Source: a virus | Length of the DNA: 23,788 bases | Virus record (IMG/VR): IMGVR_UViG_3300047496_000077 | Span: 1-23,788 of that record | Reading direction: 5' to 3' (one strand) | Part shown: piece after piece, positions 3,531-21,268 of the stretch | How the letters are laid out: every line of letters starts with the position of its first letter | How positions within the stretch are numbered: position 1 is the first letter of the stretch | Notes under the pieces: model-generated | The model's database searches: none | The model's input: only the letters and a program-made list of their open reading frames with translations | Told to the model about the DNA's origin: nothing | Position numbers and translations under genes: made by a program

Positions 3531-5722
3531 TGTGAGGTTGCAGGAGCGTTCTGTATGAGGCTAAGGAAGTCTGGCATGTTACCTCCGTAGTTAAGGGGGA
3601 TACCCTGGCCTTGGAGGTTAGTCATCGCCTGGACATACAGTTGCTGATATTGAGTCTGATAATTCGAAAATACTGATTGGGCAAGATTAACCAATTGAGT
3701 GCGTTGACTTGGGGAGAGGACACCGCCCTGTCCAGTGATTTTATCTCCCTCTACGGCGAATTTGTCCGCAAATGACTGGCCTGCGAAGTAGGTGCTTATC
3801 TGGGAGTCGGTAACTTGCCCTCCTCCTGTCTCGATTTTGATGATAGCATCGGCTAACGAAGTATCGGAGATGGATCCAGGATCTTGCACGGCGGCATTTA
3901 TGCGGGCTAAATAACTTGCTCCAGAGGAGACAGCTGCATACACAGGGCTCGCAAGATAGTTCGATAGAGCAGAGTTTGCATTCCTGGTCATACGCCCCTT
4001 ATTAAGGGGGGAACCGCTGATAGGGTTGGCTTCTGCCGCCTTCACCTTCGCGGCCATAGCAGTGTATTGGGTGGCTATAGTGGATTGAGGGGCACTTATA
4101 GGTGTTCCACCTAGCTGGGTGTATTTTGATGCGTCGAAAGACGATGGAAGGATATACCCAGTCTGTCCTGAAGCGTTATCTTTCACCTGAATTGGTATCT
4201 GGATGCTCTCCCCTGGTTGGATCGCGTTTTCGTTAGCAATCCCATTGAGAGAAGCTATCGCTTTTACACCTGCGTCTGTTGTTATCCCATTTTGTGCAGC
4301 AATTCCTTTGAGCGTATCCCCAGAGGCTACGGTGTACGAACTTGAAGACTGTGCGGCGTTTACAGGATTATTCTGTGCGAACGGTGAGACATTCGTGGCT
4401 GGCGTCAGGTTGGTCGCAGTACCTCCACTCCCGGCTGTCGTTGGTGTTCCGCTAGGGACAGAGACACTTACTGGATACCCCGCATTATAGCCATAAACAG
4501 CAGCGCGTTGGGCCGCGATTTGAAGCTGTATCTGCTTGTAAGAAGCATTTGTAAGTATCTGAAGTTCTTGAGGATCAGAAAGAGTACCTGGCGCCAGGCC
4601 CATTATGCTTTCGACATAGGGTTGCATCGAGGAGGGGACAGTCGAGGCGAAGGCTGAATAATCCCCACCAAGAGTGGTCAAGGTCTTCTGGTAGTTTGAG
4701 AGTGCATTTTGCTGCATTGTCATACCCATAGACTGCATATTGCTCTCTATCGAGGCCATATTCTCTACTATTCCCGCAGTCGCCTGCTGTACTTGGAGCT
4801 GATTACTCTGGTCTTGGGAAGCGTACTGCATCAGATTCGTTACGTTCGTCTGTGCCGCCTGATACTGCGTTGCAAGAGCGTTGTATTGCTTTTGAATTAC
4901 GGTATTCCGCGCAGAGCTCATTGCTTGTATCTGAGATTCGGAAGCAGACCCTCCTGCGGCCGTTATTTCTTGACGTATATCGTCGGTCGTCCCATTCATA
5001 ATATTCTGTAGGTTGAGCAACTGGGCATTCATATCAGGCAGGTCGTACTGTGCAGAGAGCTGGTTATACTCATTTTGGAGAGAGACTGCCGTAAGCTGCG
5101 GATTATTTATGTTGGAAAGCACTTGGTTTAACGACTGCATTATCGGAGCCAAAGAGGAAGTCATTGCATTCAGTACGGGGTCGGTCGAGGGTTGGGTGAG
5201 TTGGCTTATGACTGCATTTGCCTGCCCTGCCTGGTTAGGGGCAGGTTGATTTTGTACAGAGCTAAAGACGTTTGAATACTTTTGCGAAAGAGCCTGTTGG
5301 GTCTGGTTGTTGTATTCCCCATTAGGAGTTACCCCAAGCTGTTGCTGAAGTTGCGCTACGGCTGCGGTAGTCTGAGGTCCATACGTTCCTTGGCCTCCCG
5401 TAAGCTGGTTAGGAGTCAGATACCCCATTTGCACGAGATAGTCCTGAAGCTGTTCTACATTCGCTCCCTGCGCTCCAGTAGCAAGATCGCTTGTGGGAGG
5501 GGCTTGGTTAGGCTGTGCCTGTGTAGCGGTGGCTGCGCTGGGCGATATAGTACCACCAGTCCCTCCGAGAGATGGAGCGGCAGTGCCGGAAGTAGTAAGC
5601 GAAGGAGAATTGGGAGATGCCCCCATTTGTGTCTGGTACGCGGCGAGACCAGAATCATCTCCTGAATAATAGGTAGTCTGTCCATTTGAACCTGTAACTG
5701 GGACATTCGTGAGGTTCGCCAT
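3527..5722 (-). CDS. Large virion protein with peptidoglycan-binding and LysM domains
   Basis: The protein has 731 residues. A low-complexity Ser/Thr/Gly/Ala N-terminus leads into a PG_binding_1-type domain at about 84-144 (GANVEQLQDYL, then TYGPQTTAAVAQLQQQLGV). A long Gln/Asn/Ala helical region follows. A LysM domain sits at about 459-509 (YTVASGDTLKGIAAQNG to IQPGESIQIP). The last 200 residues are helical and Gln-rich. Both domains bind the cell-wall glycan, but I see no transglycosylase, amidase or peptidase motif. This suggests a virion protein that docks on peptidoglycan during DNA entry rather than a free lysin. The stop overlaps the next gene by 4 nt, linking it to the ejection-like protein. 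Confidence 0.72.
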   Translation of the reverse strand: MANLTNVPVTGSNGQTTYYSGDDSGLAAYQTQMGASPNSPSLTTSGTAAPSLGGTGGTISPSAATATQAQPNQAPPTSDLATGAQGANVEQLQDYLVQMGYLTPNQLTGGQGTYGPQTTAAVAQLQQQLGVTPNGEYNNQTQQALSQKYSNVFSSVQNQPAPNQAGQANAVISQLTQPSTDPVLNAMTSSLAPIMQSLNQVLSNINNPQLTAVSLQNEYNQLSAQYDLPDMNAQLLNLQNIMNGTTDDIRQEITAAGGSASESQIQAMSSARNTVIQKQYNALATQYQAAQTNVTNLMQYASQDQSNQLQVQQATAGIVENMASIESNMQSMGMTMQQNALSNYQKTLTTLGGDYSAFASTVPSSMQPYVESIMGLAPGTLSDPQELQILTNASYKQIQLQIAAQRAAVYGYNAGYPVSVSVPSGTPTTAGSGGTATNLTPATNVSPFAQNNPVNAAQSSSSYTVASGDTLKGIAAQNGITTDAGVKAIASLNGIANENAIQPGESIQIPIQVKDNASGQTGYILPSSFDASKYTQLGGTPISAPQSTIATQYTAMAAKVKAAEANPISGSPLNKGRMTRNANSALSNYLASPVYAAVSSGASYLARINAAVQDPGSISDTSLADAIIKIETGGGQVTDSQISTYFAGQSFADKFAVEGDKITGQGGVLSPSQRTQLVNLAQSVFSNYQTQYQQLYVQAMTNLQGQGIPLNYGGNMPDFLSLIQNAPATSQ

Positions 5723-14186: not shown

Positions 14187-14567
14187 TTAGAATTCGGCTC
14201 CGAATACAGAACCAGCACCACCGACCTGTTTGATCGATATCTGGTTATAGAGCCCATTCGCCGCGTTTGCACCTTGGATGCTCGGATATACCCCTGCGAC
14301 ACTCTGAGGGACTACGAACATCTGGGGGGTATTCACAGGGATAGTCCCGTCAAAGTTAGTCGCCGTGACACTTGATGGACCCCATTTGAAGTTTGCAGGA
14401 TTCCCCAGAGCGACAAGCTGTATTGCGGTGGTGTTAGCATTAAGGCCGATTGTCGAGGATACAGTGAATACACTACCCCAAGACTGATTGGACACTTGTC
14501 CGGGGATGGAGACAGAGTAGGGATTGTTGTTCTTATCTACAGGCAATTCGCGCGCATATTGAGCCAA
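14187..14567 (-). CDS. Probable virion structural protein with a TTG start
   Basis: The 126-residue protein is beta-rich and Asn/Val/Gly/Ala-rich (YSVSIPGQVSNQSWGSVFTV, PQMFVVPQSVAGVYPSIQ), probably a head decoration or head-completion protein. The only usable start is TTG at 14567, because the next in-frame Met is about 80 residues inside. The start is buried in the last 31 bases of the HNH gene. There is no ribosome site at normal distance; the nearest GGAG is about 20 nt upstream. The sequence from TTG onward (TTGGCTCAATAT) looks like an ATGGCT start whose first base was replaced when the HNH gene arrived. Confidence 0.6.
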   Translation of the reverse strand: MAQYARELPVDKNNNPYSVSIPGQVSNQSWGSVFTVSSTIGLNANTTAIQLVALGNPANFKWGPSSVTATNFDGTIPVNTPQMFVVPQSVAGVYPSIQGANAANGLYNQISIKQVGGAGSVFGAEF

Positions 14568-15109
14568 ATTAAGTTCGCTTTGACTAACTCCTGAAAATAA
14601 GGAGATAATCTCATTTCATCGTTTCTTTTCCGAGGGTGATGAAAGTGGCAAAGCGTAATGCCATTATTAACCTCGTACCGTAATTCTGAATAATCTCGCC
14701 ACGGTAAGATGTGGTGCGCTACGACCTGCCCAGAACAATCATCGTTGAAAATCTTGCACTTCCAACAGTCCCTGTTCTTGACAGACCGACTCCATTCTCT
14801 ATGGAGCTGCCCTCCCCTATCTTTGTGGTCGTCTTTCAATTTACTACGGTCCTCTATCCATTGATAATTGTTCTTGCCAGATACGTCAAGACGCTTCTTG
14901 CCAAGCCAAGGTTGAGGGATACGAGGATCTTCTACTCTCGTCTTTCCCTTATTCCAAACTCCTATCCTTTTGATGATTTCTGCTATGTTCTGATTGTTAT
15001 GCCCCAGTATGTACCGGCACGGCTGCCCTTTAATGCGGCCGTTCTTTACGGATGTGTGCGTAGCAAGGCTGGTTTCCCTGCCACATCCACATGCGCAAAG
15101 CCTGGGCAT
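14537..15109 (-). CDS. Free-standing HNH homing endonuclease with NUMOD3-like motif
   Basis: The 190-residue protein has a Cys-rich N-terminus (CACGCG), a NUMOD3-like DNA-binding motif (VWNKGKTRVEDPRI, about 51-64) and a second element (SGKNNYQWI). The C-terminal HNH domain has CWKC, then VVAHHILPWRDYSEL and NNGITLCHFHHPRK, with the His-His and Asn of the family. Such enzymes nick or cut DNA to copy their own gene into unoccupied sites. It lies between two structural genes, begins 2 nt after the stop of a tiny gene, and its last codons run over the next gene's start. No ribosome site was seen. Confidence 0.82.
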   Translation of the reverse strand: MPRLCACGCGRETSLATHTSVKNGRIKGQPCRYILGHNNQNIAEIIKRIGVWNKGKTRVEDPRIPQPWLGKKRLDVSGKNNYQWIEDRSKLKDDHKDRGGQLHREWSRSVKNRDCWKCKIFNDDCSGQVVAHHILPWRDYSELRYEVNNGITLCHFHHPRKRNDEMRLSPYFQELVKANLIWLNMRANCL

Positions 15110-15465: not shown

Positions 15466-17370
15466 TTATTTCTTGCCTTTCGGCGTTAGTTCTTGTTTAA
15501 GTGGTGCCGTCGCTGCCTTAGGGTCTTTCTTGTCTTCACCAACCTTGGGCTTCTCAGCCTGATCTGGCGGAGGTTGCTGGCCCTCCTGCTTCTGTTGCTG
15601 CATTTGCTGCTGTTTCTGTTGGCCCAACAATTCCTCGTGCCAAGCAATATGCACCCACTTGGCCCAAGTGTTCTGAGCCATATAATGAATTGGAATGTGC
15701 TGCTCGTGGTTGTCCGTGTCCTTCACCTGAGGCAACGAGTTCTCGTTGATGCTGTCATTTTCCTGCTCGGCGTTAATCTCGTCAATAGTCTTTGGAACAA
15801 GGATGTCCATCATCGTAGGATCTTGGAGGAACTTAGGGAGGAAGACATATTTGTTGAAGTTCCGCATACCATCTGGGCCGAGCGTCTCCTGGAACTGGCC
15901 GTACATCTGCATAAGGTCTCGACGGAGGACCATTTCCTTGTATTCCGCCTCTTTTGCACTGAAAACAAGTACCCCGGGAGGATACTTGGTCTTGATATCC
16001 TTAAACTCAATCTTCTCGAAGGTCATACCCTTAACACCGACAATCGTGGCTATTTTAGTATCCCCCGCTTTCGTATAACGAACATAACGTTGGTACCACT
16101 GTTTCCAGAACTCCTCCTCACCGAACTGCATAACCTTGCTTTGAAGGCTTTGGGCTAGATCGTTCAACTGCTGTTGGATGGCCGATTCCGTGGCCGACTG
16201 CTTGCCCTTCTTAGCGGGCGCGAGAGCCATACCAGTGCCTACAGGGTCATTTGCCTCCTGTGAGAGCATAGACATAAACGCCGCTAGACCGTTGTCCATC
16301 GGATTAGCAGTGTTCAGAGGGGCTATAGACGCACTGACGTCCTTGACCGGTATGTGTTGCCCTATCTGTCTTGAGAACAACTGGGTCTGGTCAAGGACGT
16401 TCTCTGGTACGAACTGATACAGAGGGTTTGCCTTATCCTTGGCTGCTATGAATGCGAGGTTTAAAAGCACAGAACGGGCTCGATGCTTGTCTTCGAGAAG
16501 GTCAGCTACCGAGAATACAACACTCGCGTGGGGTTCCCTGAATGCCTCTTTGACTACTATCGGCCAGTTGGACTCGCCATTGTCCCCATCCCGTAAATCT
16601 AGCTTTTCTTGGTATAAGACCTTGCTGAAGTCCCTATCAAGCCAGAATACCGACTTATCCCCATCTCCATCGTACCCGAAGAACTCAAGGATCTGATACA
16701 CATCGCCTTGGTACGAGTCAGCGGCTTGTGGGGTGGCTAACTTAGCCTGTTCACGGCGTATCTTGTATTCCCATAGATAGGGGTCTATCCCCGACGGAAG
16801 TTCTTTAGCATCAGCTATCCCCTTAATCTTTCCTGCCTTAATTAGTTTGTTTATCTCCCATTTGGACTTTGTAATCCACTTCCAGTAGTAGCGCCACTGC
16901 TGGGGGTTATCGAAATACGGATCATAGCCGAACACAAGAGGGTTAATAACGTGGGGAACCATTATCTTTCGCTTGGGGTCGAACTGCAAGGTCTCCATAT
17001 AGCCACGACCGAAGAACAGCGTGTCCCATGCCCAGTCGTAGTCCAACCGCGCCTTGTCCATCTCACGGTAGTCATTTTGGGCGAGGATGTTGAGTGTGTT
17101 GACCTTCTTCTGGTCGAGCTCCTCGCCAGGTACAAACTTGACCTGCATCTTATCGTCATAAAGGTTCGAAAGTATGCGGTTAAATAAGGTCAGGAGAAGC
17201 GTGGATGCAATGTTCTCGTCCCCACGCTGGAGGTTGTTCAAGAGCACCAGTTGGTTCACCTGGCGCTTCTTTCTGGTCTGGAGGAACTGGAATGATTCAT
17301 CATATTTCGAGTATATGTCCCTCGTGTCCAAGGGTAGCGCCATATAGATCTTTTGTGCTTCGGGGTTCAT
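15466..17370 (-). CDS. Portal protein
   Basis: The 634-residue protein matches podovirus portals in length and layout. It has an N-terminal helical part (FQFLQTRKKRQVNQLVLLNN), a wing with WAWDTLFFGRGYMETLQFDP and NPLVFGYDPYFDN, a clip/stem region rich in Asp and aromatics, then long helices (SATESAIQQQLNDLAQSLQS). The last ~75 residues are a disordered Gln/Lys/Pro tail. The portal forms the dodecameric ring through which TerL pumps DNA. Its ATG overlaps the preceding stop by 4 nt (17367-17370), and terL lies two genes upstream, the standard order. The Gln-rich tail is longer than needed for the core and may be a phage-specific addition. Confidence 0.82.
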   Translation of the reverse strand: MNPEAQKIYMALPLDTRDIYSKYDESFQFLQTRKKRQVNQLVLLNNLQRGDENIASTLLLTLFNRILSNLYDDKMQVKFVPGEELDQKKVNTLNILAQNDYREMDKARLDYDWAWDTLFFGRGYMETLQFDPKRKIMVPHVINPLVFGYDPYFDNPQQWRYYWKWITKSKWEINKLIKAGKIKGIADAKELPSGIDPYLWEYKIRREQAKLATPQAADSYQGDVYQILEFFGYDGDGDKSVFWLDRDFSKVLYQEKLDLRDGDNGESNWPIVVKEAFREPHASVVFSVADLLEDKHRARSVLLNLAFIAAKDKANPLYQFVPENVLDQTQLFSRQIGQHIPVKDVSASIAPLNTANPMDNGLAAFMSMLSQEANDPVGTGMALAPAKKGKQSATESAIQQQLNDLAQSLQSKVMQFGEEEFWKQWYQRYVRYTKAGDTKIATIVGVKGMTFEKIEFKDIKTKYPPGVLVFSAKEAEYKEMVLRRDLMQMYGQFQETLGPDGMRNFNKYVFLPKFLQDPTMMDILVPKTIDEINAEQENDSINENSLPQVKDTDNHEQHIPIHYMAQNTWAKWVHIAWHEELLGQQKQQQMQQQKQEGQQPPPDQAEKPKVGEDKKDPKAATAPLKQELTPKGKK

Positions 17371-17771
17371 TTAGAGTGGACTATCTGGGATAAGGTCTGG
17401 GGTCTCTCGTGCAGTGTGTGTCCTTTCATCGGCTTAGCACCTACGAAAATGCGGTACTTGGTCTGCTTCTCATTGATAGTTACCTTGGGGTCTACGTCAG
17501 GCATAACAGTCATACCATCCTTCCACAGCATCACTTCTATGCCCTTGGAGTGGTAGTTGAAAAGCTCTTGCCTGGTAGGAGTATGAGCCCTGAAAGCCTC
17601 TGGGCTGGCGGCGAACTCAAAGACGCGGATGATTGCGGCCTCGCCTGAGCCCAAGTCGTCTTCAAGATGCGTCTCGGACTTCGACGCTAGGTCTTGAGAC
17701 TGCCACGGCGTGTTGTCTATCTCGCCGACACTAGCCTCGCCAATGAGCTCATTGTCCTTATTGTCTTTCAT
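17367..17771 (-). CDS. Phage protein between terminase and portal, function unknown
   Basis: From ATG at 17771 the product has 134 residues: an acidic N-terminus (NELIGEASVGEIDNTPW), then a mixed alpha/beta part (IIRVFEFAASPEAFRAHTPT, VMLWKDGMTVMPDVDPKVTI). An ATG at 17783 is possible, but the start at 17771 forms the common ATGA overlap with the HNH stop and would have been served by the GGAGAGG at the terL end before the HNH gene was inserted. The stop overlaps the portal start by 4 nt, so it is translationally coupled to the portal. No named family was recognised; a packaging or portal-assembly accessory is plausible. Confidence 0.55.
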   Translation of the reverse strand: MKDNKDNELIGEASVGEIDNTPWQSQDLASKSETHLEDDLGSGEAAIIRVFEFAASPEAFRAHTPTRQELFNYHSKGIEVMLWKDGMTVMPDVDPKVTINEKQTKYRIFVGAKPMKGHTLHERPQTLSQIVHSK

Positions 17772-18286
17772 TTTCCGCGCCATATATCGATATTAGGCCG
17801 ATAATCGAATATTTCAGTGTGTTTCCTAGAATTACATGAGTGACATAGTGGTTGGATGTTATTTATGGTGTTAGAACCGCCACGGGTTATAGGAATAATA
17901 TGATCCTTAGACAACTTAATCTCTGGCTCGAACCGCTTGCAGCATAAGCACATGTATTTATACTTACGCTTCAAGTCCATCCATTCTTGGATGGTAAACG
18001 TCCCTTTTGCCCCCTTTATGCGAGCGTACCGTAGTAAGCTGTGGTAGGTCTTATATCCTTCCTGTTTAGAGACACCAAATGGCTTGAGATGTCCCCTACG
18101 ATTCTTCTCCTTTGCACTTTCGGTATGGGTGCGACCCTTCATTGGTGATACCTTGCCAGTCATCACTATAGACTGATGTGATCCCCAACATTCAAGGCTA
18201 CAGTACTTCCTATTCTCCCATTGCCTCAAAGAGAATTTAACTGGTCTTGAGAACGACTTATTACATTGTAAGCAGATTTTGTTCAT
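17768..18286 (-). CDS. Free-standing HNH endonuclease inserted after terL
   Basis: From ATG at 18286 the protein has 172 residues. It has an N-terminal zinc finger (CLQCNKSF and CSLEC), a central basic part, then an HNH core with CLCC, KLSKDHIIPITRGGSNTINN and CHSCNSRKH, which supplies the Cys4 zinc site and the Asp-His/Asn/His catalytic set. The start at 18286 shares a base with the terL stop (TAATG) and has GGAGAGGA just upstream; an upstream in-frame start at 18301 is less likely. Its last residues, DIWRGK, nearly repeat TerL's last residues, EIWRGK, and its stop overlaps the next gene. This is a mobile endonuclease gene lodged at the terL 3' end. Confidence 0.85.
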   Translation of the reverse strand: MNKICLQCNKSFSRPVKFSLRQWENRKYCSLECWGSHQSIVMTGKVSPMKGRTHTESAKEKNRRGHLKPFGVSKQEGYKTYHSLLRYARIKGAKGTFTIQEWMDLKRKYKYMCLCCKRFEPEIKLSKDHIIPITRGGSNTINNIQPLCHSCNSRKHTEIFDYRPNIDIWRGK

Positions 18287-19503
18287 TATTTTCCTCTCCA
18301 AATCTCTACCATCTTGTCATTAAAGGGTTGTTTAATAAAAGGCTTTGAGATTGAGTGAGTCATCACCACGTATCTCATAGCATCTATCGCGTGGTTGAAT
18401 TCGTCAATAGGCTTTTCAGTAGCATTTCGATACGGGCTCTTATCCGCATAGCTGTAGGTCTCTAACTCGCTTATGAGGTTGACACAGGAGCTGTGAATAA
18501 AGAGTTTGTTCTGCTTAAACAGTTCACGAATCTGGTCTATGCCTGCCTGGATAGAGTCTGCGCCCTTCACTACGTCTCTTATGTTTACGCCCTTACGCTT
18601 CATAACCTCGATGGACTGGGGCTGAGCTGGGTCTGGATAGACCTTGTTGTACCTATTTGCACTTACGTAATCAGCGGTCTCTTCGTCAGTCATACCAGTC
18701 CTGTAAAGCTCGTGTACGACGTAAAATGCCCCATCCTTGACCTTCATATCCAATACTGCGGTTGGGTTAGTAAACCCGAAGTCCACACCAGCGAGTTTCT
18801 CTGAAAAGCCATAGATGACGTCGGTGAATAGATGCCTGTCCCGGTCAAACTCCTTGAACACGAGGCCTTCTGACTTCTTAAACTCGGCTAGGTATTCCTG
18901 TGCAAATCGGTCTTCCGGGAGCTCCTGCTTGGCTTTTTCGATCTCTTCACGCGGGATATAAGGATTATCGTACGTTGTGAAGTGGAATGAACGGTAATCC
19001 GTATCCTTATAGGCCAGATTGTAAAGGTCATAGAGGTGATTAAAACCTTTTGCTGTCCCAGTGAATAGAGCTGACCCGCGCCTTGGAGTGAGCGTAGGAC
19101 GCATTGCCTCCTGCCAGCCCACCCAGAAGTTCCTGTAGTCCTGCACCTCATCCGCTAGGATGAAATCGAACTCATCGCCTCGATAGTTGTTCACGAGTTC
19201 CCAAGAGCCTAGGAACACATCACTTACTCCTCCCTTGAGCGTGCGTACCTTGAGTTCCAAGCGTGTGTCGTTCTCTTTGATTATTCCCTGTCCAAACTCC
19301 CTTCTAAGCCTATCCCACATGAGTCTACGAGCATCACCTAGGGTAGGAGCTAGGTATAGTACCCGCTGGTCGTTCTTGAATATCGCTGCTCCCTTAATCT
19401 CCTCAGCATCGAGTGTGGTCTTGCCGAACTTACGCCCACACACCACTACTCTGAACCTGTGTAGATCGCTCGCTATCTCATTCTGTGCTGGATTGAGGAT
19501 CAT
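18286..19503 (-). CDS. terL: Terminase large subunit
   Basis: The 405-residue protein is the packaging motor with nuclease. Walker A is GRKFGKTT (23-30) and Walker B is FILADE with D118 and E119. The coupling motif FTGT lies near 147-150. The RNase H-like nuclease residues are D241 in AGVDFG, D291 in YPDPA and D374 in NHAIDAMRY. It cuts concatemeric DNA and pumps it through the portal encoded two genes downstream. The start overlaps the candidate small subunit by 26 nt, and its N-terminus (ILNPAQNEI) is typical of the family. The 3' end carries a GGAGAGG that now serves the inserted HNH gene. Confidence 0.93.
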   Translation of the reverse strand: MILNPAQNEIASDLHRFRVVVCGRKFGKTTLDAEEIKGAAIFKNDQRVLYLAPTLGDARRLMWDRLRREFGQGIIKENDTRLELKVRTLKGGVSDVFLGSWELVNNYRGDEFDFILADEVQDYRNFWVGWQEAMRPTLTPRRGSALFTGTAKGFNHLYDLYNLAYKDTDYRSFHFTTYDNPYIPREEIEKAKQELPEDRFAQEYLAEFKKSEGLVFKEFDRDRHLFTDVIYGFSEKLAGVDFGFTNPTAVLDMKVKDGAFYVVHELYRTGMTDEETADYVSANRYNKVYPDPAQPQSIEVMKRKGVNIRDVVKGADSIQAGIDQIRELFKQNKLFIHSSCVNLISELETYSYADKSPYRNATEKPIDEFNHAIDAMRYVVMTHSISKPFIKQPFNDKMVEIWRGK

Positions 19504-19804: not shown

Positions 19805-21268
19805 TTACCAATCACTATCGTCAAGAACACTCCTTTCTTTCTTCCTCTTCTCTGAGACTATCCCGCTTATCTCTAGTAACTCGCAAGAGATAGATACCGC
19901 AGTCTCTAGTGCTGCTACGAGTACTTCAGTAGGATCGTATACAGTATCGTCTAAGAACTCCTTGCCATTCTCTTCTAATACCCTCCTGGGAGCTTTGAGA
20001 GCCTCGTTCAGTGTCTTAGATGAAGTCGTTATAGCCTCAAACGTCTTCCCTCCTCCGAGTACTATACCATGCTTAAAAGCCATCTTAGTAGCACTCACTG
20101 CATCCTCTACCTTAGCCTTGATAGACCGTTGCTCATTCTCAGTCGCAGCTCCTACGCGGATTATCGCCACGCCGCCTGTAAGGTTAGCTATACGCTTTTC
20201 TGCTTCCATCTGCTCGAATTTCGAGTCGCCCTTCTCTACTGACTCTATGTAGGTAATCCTATCTGCTATACCCTTCTTAGAGCCAGTTCCTCCAACGAAT
20301 ATGGTCGTATCCTTCCGAGCGATTACTTGTTTCGCTAACCCAAATGATGACGACGTTACCTCTGCAAGAGAATCGCCTTTCTTTGGATCAATAACAATAG
20401 CTCCAACCACTGCGGCTATGTCTTTGAGTAGTACCGACTTCTTCGCCCCGTATCCAGGTGCTTCTATGAGAAGCGGTGAGAATGTACCTTTTAGCTTATT
20501 CATGATTATACCTCCTATGGCATCTTCACCGAAGCCTTCTGCGATTACCACGAATTCCTTTCTTCCACTCTCTAATACGAGCTTTATGGCAGGAACTAGA
20601 TCCGAGAATGAATCTACCTTCTGTGCAAAGAGTAGGATTAATGGGTTATCCAGAGAAACCCTATCATCTGAATTTATGAGATAAGGGGATATGAATCCTT
20701 TCTCTATCTCAAGACCAGAGGTTATCTCACACTCAGTATTCATGCTCTTAGAGTCATGGACAGAGAGGCTGCCCTGCTCTCCTATCTTGAACACAGTATC
20801 CGATATTACACGCGCTATTTCCTCGTTATTATAGGAGTTATGCGCAATCCTGTACAGATCTTCCTTTGTCTTAACCTTTTTAGAAGACTTCTTAATCTGA
20901 GCTATCGCCTCAACTAATCCCTTCCTGAGGGAGATTACTTCAGCATGAGTATTAATTGGCTTACTAAATTCGTCCTTAGGAGTGAGAAGAAGACGGACTA
21001 TTGAGGACATTAATATAGCAGCGGTTGTAGTGCCATCACCTACTCTGTCATCGGTCTTTGAGGTCGTCTCTTTTATAAAAGAGACGATATGATTCTCGTG
21101 CTCGTCTGGTAGCTCAAATTCCTGCGAAGCAAGTTTACCGTCATCTATCGCGCCCGTGCTAAGGAGTATCTTCTTCCCAGCGGGTCCGTAGGTTGGAGCT
21201 ATATAAGAATAGTACTTGTCGAGTGCTGATAATATGGACTCACGAGGATCAAAATCTATTATCTTCAT
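19805..21268 (-). CDS. Phage-encoded GroEL-type (group I) chaperonin
   Basis: The protein has about 487 residues, against 548 in E. coli GroEL. Conserved blocks are TYGPAGKK (26-33), IDDG (41-44, at the D52 site) and GDGTTTA (77-83, at D87). FISPYLIN opens the apical domain (about 191). GGVAIIRVGAATE (about 364-376) and KVEDAVSATK (about 385-394, at D398) follow. VLGGG (about 402-406) and YDPTEVLVAALETA (about 443-456) close the equatorial domain. The ATP-hydrolysis residues appear present. The C-terminal Gly-Gly-Met tail is absent, replaced by a charged end (SVLDDSDW), and the equatorial part before DPT is shortened. The start overlaps the previous stop by 4 nt. No GroES gene is visible; it may work alone or with the host co-chaperonin. 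Confidence 0.93.
   Translation of the reverse strand: MKIIDFDPRESILSALDKYYSYIAPTYGPAGKKILLSTGAIDDGKLASQEFELPDEHENHIVSFIKETTSKTDDRVGDGTTTAAILMSSIVRLLLTPKDEFSKPINTHAEVISLRKGLVEAIAQIKKSSKKVKTKEDLYRIAHNSYNNEEIARVISDTVFKIGEQGSLSVHDSKSMNTECEITSGLEIEKGFISPYLINSDDRVSLDNPLILLFAQKVDSFSDLVPAIKLVLESGRKEFVVIAEGFGEDAIGGIIMNKLKGTFSPLLIEAPGYGAKKSVLLKDIAAVVGAIVIDPKKGDSLAEVTSSSFGLAKQVIARKDTTIFVGGTGSKKGIADRITYIESVEKGDSKFEQMEAEKRIANLTGGVAIIRVGAATENEQRSIKAKVEDAVSATKMAFKHGIVLGGGKTFEAITTSSKTLNEALKAPRRVLEENGKEFLDDTVYDPTEVLVAALETAVSISCELLEISGIVSEKRKKERSVLDDSDW

Follow-up and report, generated by a model that had tools for sequence, protein, structure and literature searches.

A probable homing-type HNH endonuclease gene at the overlap of terL and the following gene in a phage, with one copy of the overlap for each gene

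Genes and tail copies at the terL junction

The stretch of DNA analysed here (the window, 23,788 nucleotides of the IMG/VR record IMGVR_UViG_3300047496_000077) carries terL, an HNH gene, a 138-codon gene and a portal gene, in this order on the minus strand.

18286-19503, minus: terL, encoding a 405-aa-type large terminase; C-terminus NDKMVEIWRGK, stop TAA
18306-18286, minus: proximal copy, the terL tail; GAGATTTGGAGAGGAAAATAA, encoding EIWRGK-stop
18293-18299, minus: GGAGAGG, within the proximal copy, 6 bases 5' of the HNH ATG
17768-18286, minus: HNH endonuclease gene, 172 aa; C-terminus RPNIDIWRGK, stop TGA
17810-17950, minus: HNH domain (residues 113-159); CxxC, DH, N and CxxCN motifs intact in the alignment
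17788-17768, minus: distal copy, where the HNH frame ends and the next gene starts; GATATATGGCGCGGAAAATGA
17783, minus: most likely start of the next gene, inside the distal copy; ATGGCGCGGAAA, MARK...
17367-17783, minus: next gene (in relatives it follows terL), 138 aa, MARKMKD..., with its ATG inside the distal copy
15466-17370, minus: portal protein, SU10-portal-like (Pfam SU10_portal, 2e-9)

TerL matched Pfam Terminase_3C and Terminase_6N (2.7e-15 for both) and is 70% identical to the TerL of L001, the nearest relative by both TerL and portal. The portal is 84% identical to that of L001 over part of the protein, and a search for it in the phage collection gave no match. The product of the next gene is 63% identical to its homologue in L001 and 52% to that in L050; it had no match in Pfam or PHROG, and no relative of the gene was found in viral contigs. 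Two genes upstream of terL, the window encodes a chaperonin (19805-21268, minus strand; Cpn60/TCP-1, Pfam 3e-21), and by sequence inspection chaperonin-like genes lie near terL also in L028, L029, L091, and L018.

The HNH protein matched Pfam HNH_5 (8.7e-13) and HNH (2.4e-11) and PHROG HNH families, whereas its AlphaFold model (pLDDT 45) was of too low quality for use. The gene starts at an ATG shared with the terL stop (TAATGA), and its G+C content of 42% is lower than in either neighbour, with 48% in terL and 52% in the next gene. It is free-standing, with an intact nuclease domain. A group I intron carrying the HNH gene was ruled out, since Rfam gave no match anywhere in the window and the HNH coding frame fills the insert, leaving no space outside the ORF. 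The GGAGAGG motif is likely the ribosome site of the HNH gene. A preliminary description of this DNA supposed that the motif had been taken over from the next gene; it is absent at the empty junctions of L001, L050, and L051 and sits in the proximal copy before the HNH start, and that idea is not supported.

The same description drew attention to the common end of TerL (VEIWRGK-stop) and the HNH protein (IDIWRGK-stop), and this likeness is real. The end of the upstream gene is repeated at the end of the HNH ORF, in frame with it, and the proximal and distal copies are identical at 16 of 21 bases. One of the five differing bases causes a replacement (Glu/Asp), and the others are silent or alter the stop codon. 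No further site on either strand of the window matches the proximal copy at 15 bases or more. Five of the six terminal residues were shared in two of about 1,015 adjacent ORF pairs from the window and the fetched loci: the terL/HNH pair and one in L055, with KHLCL ends, that we judged to be paralogous genes. Adjacent pairs served as the null because random pairing of ORF ends (522 of 2,000,000 pairs) is inflated by related TerL tails and was discarded.

The overlap of the distal copy with the next gene, also described before, stands, with a different start: the gene most likely begins at 17783 and not at 17771, because its homologues in L050 and L051 start at that position. The N-termini are alike, MARK in the window against MARV and MARI in L050/L051. 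The distal copy would have been retained because the next gene starts in it. A second, different HNH gene of the window (14537-15109, minus strand) overlaps the next start (TTG, 14567) with its 3' end by about 31 bases. This end contains ATATGCGCGCGAA, which is like ATATGGCGCGGAA of the distal copy and may be a coincidence.

Empty and occupied junctions in relatives

Relatives were found with a portal profile (80 loci), which together with L001 gave 62 distinct readable tails. Comparison with relatives lacking the HNH gene had been proposed beforehand, and its outcome is the expected one. In about 60 distinct relatives of this kind, TerL terminates in a peptide of the same sort; the distal copy looks like the empty sites of these relatives, that of L051 being the closest. 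The HNH gene is missing from all but one of the roughly 60 readable relatives, in line with its earlier interpretation as an insertion. Its presence at this fixed site is sporadic: nearly all of the approximately 60 junctions are empty, and the occupied ones are those of the window, the one contig with this state in its lineage, and of L066.

The empty junctions differ in how the two genes meet. In L001, DKMVEVWRGN-TAA is immediately followed by the next-gene ATG, downstream of the terL stop. In the junctions of L050 (GACATATGGCGCGGGTAA) and L051 (GATATATGGCGCGGATAA), the next-gene ATG lies within the terL tail, at the Ile-Trp codons (ATATGGC). Since the next gene of L001 starts after the terL stop, the overlap in the ancestor of the window may have differed from that in L050 and L051.

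Compared as a 19-mer, the distal copy has 2 mismatches to L051 (the best match), 4 to L050, and 5 to the proximal copy; from 17794 on (from AATAT), 20 of 21 bases match L051. The proximal copy lacks the ATG present in ATATGG sites and has 3 mismatches each to L053, L059, and L110. Over this short sequence, the distal copy is closer to the terL end of HNH-less relatives than to the proximal copy, although copies of 21 bases do not suffice to prove their sources. The HNH frame reads through the distal copy, which has the codons and the overlap of the empty sites (L051, L050), and this agrees with the proposal that a displaced original tail was fused to the HNH protein.

The C-terminus was readable in about 50 HNH homologues, and none terminates in IWRGK; this ending is thus not native to the family, as the preliminary description required. 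A weak HNH match in L159 has VW near its end and lacks the remainder of IWRGK. None of the other HNH insertions of the same family that we checked shares the tail of its upstream gene, and only two loci came from an HNH scan of bacterial genomes, both lacking a shared tail.

In L066, an HNH gene 47% identical to that of the window lies directly after terL, at the same junction; it was the best match of the HNH scan, whose query profile included L066. This locus is far from the window on the portal tree and has a Terminase_3-type TerL. Its HNH frame is followed by the tail-like DNA GTAGACATATGGCGAAAC (V-D-I-W-R-N in the terL frame), which contains the next-gene ATG and is out of frame with the HNH gene. 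In L053, an HNH_3 gene (4000-4467; Pfam 5.1e-10) occupies the same junction and starts at an ATG within the terL tail. L066 and L053 are occupied too, and the junction of terL and the next gene is a repeated target.

Some further observations concern these junctions. Further downstream in L053, the next gene has a start of its own and a possible promoter. L059 carries a small ORF with CxxC motifs (4329-4571) at the same terL junction, which overlaps the next-gene start with its end and had no Pfam match. As in the window, HNH genes of the same family in L037, L038, L042, and L044 end at or within the region where the following gene starts, and such an ending seems usual for this family.

A conserved TerL tail peptide

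The tail peptide of TerL (FNDKMVEIWRGK; 18286-18312 in the window) follows F-x-D-K-[TM]-x-[ED]-[IV]-W in 63 TerLs (the window, L001, and L021-L115). The search pattern demanded the Asp and the Ile/Val-Trp-like pair, so these columns are not independent evidence, whereas Phe, Thr/Met, and Glu/Asp were not demanded. The search pattern also occurs in approximately 5% of other ORF ends (63/1,293), and a tighter form was found only in this TerL. Identity between TerL subfamilies is 0.55 in the nine tail residues, compared with 0.05 to 0.12 in preceding stretches. Synonymous codons vary freely and thus the peptide, not the DNA, is conserved; the terL tail is under protein selection.

Among TerLs of the window's subfamily, the tail is present where the portal is (the window, L001, and L049) and absent in 18 loci without the portal or with only remote likeness to it. 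TerL type switches at least 12 times on a quick portal tree while the tail is retained, a count that uses two broad TerL groups (BLAST) and a tree with weak forks. The tail peptide is portable: it goes with the portal rather than with the terminase family and is common to different terminase types. In D6E, TerL is proposed to contact the portal through a C-terminal arm, for which there is support in T4 (PMC5727402). The tail peptide may correspond to such an arm and is a direct and testable candidate for a motor-portal docking signal in a large group of uncultured phages.

Origin of the two copies and comparison with known systems

Taking these data together, we consider it probable (about 0.75) that a free-standing homing-type HNH endonuclease has settled at the overlap of terL and the next gene, with one copy of the overlap for each gene. 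Empty junctions like those of L050 and L051 have the final terL codons overlapping the beginning of the next gene. The overlap would be needed twice, by TerL for its conserved C-terminal peptide and by the next gene for its start codon, so that an insertion would be tolerable only if each gene keeps one copy. The TerL tail is encoded by the proximal copy, in which the inner ATG has been lost, and the distal copy retains the ATGGCGCGG start of the next gene. Because it is in frame with the HNH gene, the distal copy would have been appended to the HNH C-terminus as a by-product. In the most likely mechanism, a nick or cut made by the HNH protein in the empty overlap is repaired from an occupied genome, and the HNH gene is installed in this way; recoding of the proximal copy and separation of the two halves would protect the occupied site. 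A mobile nuclease could thus enter a two-gene overlap without breaking either gene.

The insertion could have carried the tail alone, as in fungal elements (PMC3630166), or an entire terL. The proximal copy may be native rather than brought by the endonuclease, since it continues the normal C-terminus of a 405-aa-type TerL (DKMVEVWRGN in L001); it fits 405-aa-type TerLs but other tails as well. The distal copy may have been left by another, Terminase_3-type terminase, such as that of L051 (NIDIWRG).

These likenesses bear on a terminase exchange with the HNH gene at its boundary, which is compatible with the homing reading and specifies the origin of both copies. We regard it as possible, though not as the favoured account. 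A 405-aa-type terL with a complete tail of its own would have replaced a Terminase_3-type terL, and the distal copy would be the remnant of the old tail, kept as the start of the next gene. Besides the distal NIDIWRG and the 20 of 21 bases matching L051, which has the other TerL type, the Asn at that distal position is rare (2 of 63 tails) and both TerL types occur within the window's portal clade (L047 vs. L001, L049, and the window). The changes of TerL type on the portal tree point in the same direction, and nuclease genes are documented at exchange boundaries (PMC10448857). However, L001 and L049 have a 405-aa-type TerL without the HNH gene, so the latter is not required for an exchange; moreover, a 21-base match is thin and the tree forks are weak. 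More speculatively, and we think this unlikely, the overlap could be a landing site at which endonucleases ferry whole terminases between phages; each newcomer would bring a docking tail of its own, and the resident tail would persist as the start of the next gene. This would explain one C-terminal peptide on different terminase types beside the same portal.

A simple duplication, in which the insertion copied one 20-base stretch (a staggered break with fill-in) followed by divergence at silent sites, seems doubtful. It would account for IWRGK being encoded by both copies with mostly silent differences, but each copy is nearer to the tails of other phages than to the other copy (2 mismatches between the distal copy and L051 and 3 between the proximal copy and L053, L059, or L110, against 5). 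We know of no target duplication in this HNH enzyme family. With a Terminase_3-like distal copy and a proximal copy that continues a 405-aa-type TerL, two sources are favoured over one duplication, within the limits of so short a stretch.

It is very improbable that the HNH protein takes part in packaging, docking on the packaging machine through its IWRGK end as TerL does. Its end does equal the conserved TerL peptide tied to this portal, and HNH proteins that partner the terminase are known from HK97 (discussed in PMC10448857) and Skunavirus (HrdP, PMC12724721), but the HNH protein of L066 lacks this end and the gene is missing in almost all relatives, unlike packaging HNH genes. Chance likeness of the two C-termini can be dismissed: the shared residues are only five to six, but the match of 16 of 21 bases is unique in the window, the terL/HNH pair is the one adjacent pair not judged paralogous, and the distal copy is independently matched in empty sites.

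Among known systems, the packaging HNH genes of the HK97 type and Skunavirus HrdP (PMC12724721) share the position between terL and portal. HrdP is present in all analysed genomes of its genus, whereas the HNH gene of the window occurs in very few relatives; being absent from almost all of them, it is not a conserved member of the packaging module. Nucleases at exchange boundaries also lie beside the terminase, with flanks maybe of different histories, but they belong to other nuclease families, and the excerpts of PMC10448857 describe no tail duplication.

The homing reading has closer counterparts in free-standing phage homing endonucleases such as T4 mobE, an HNH gene of sporadic occurrence in an essential operon, with a UAAUGA start-stop overlap with the upstream gene nrdA (excerpts of PMC2988022). 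Mobility is reported for mobE and only presumed for the gene of the window, and a duplicated gene end is not described in those excerpts.

The fungal mitochondrial precedent suggested in the preliminary description does exist (PMC3630166): endonuclease ORFs with duplicated gene C-termini are known at Allomyces atp6 and at Glomus atp6, atp9, cox2, and nad3. Within the open-licence literature, we found duplication of a C-terminus by endonuclease ORFs in fungal mitochondria only, and found no report of a phage setting, so tiny a duplication or a double role in an overlap. As in the window, the fungal endonuclease ORF lies at the 3' end of an essential gene, the gene end is present twice with largely silent differences, the displaced distal copy groups with ORF-less relatives, and the ORF is in phase in some cases (PMC3630166). 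Here, in contrast, the host is a phage, the nuclease is of the HNH type, and the copy is about 20 bases long and also serves as the start of the next gene. Elements of this kind are already known; what is apparently new is the occurrence in a phage, with so short a duplicated stretch that plays two roles in an overlap, and a phage case would make C-terminus duplication accessible to genetics.
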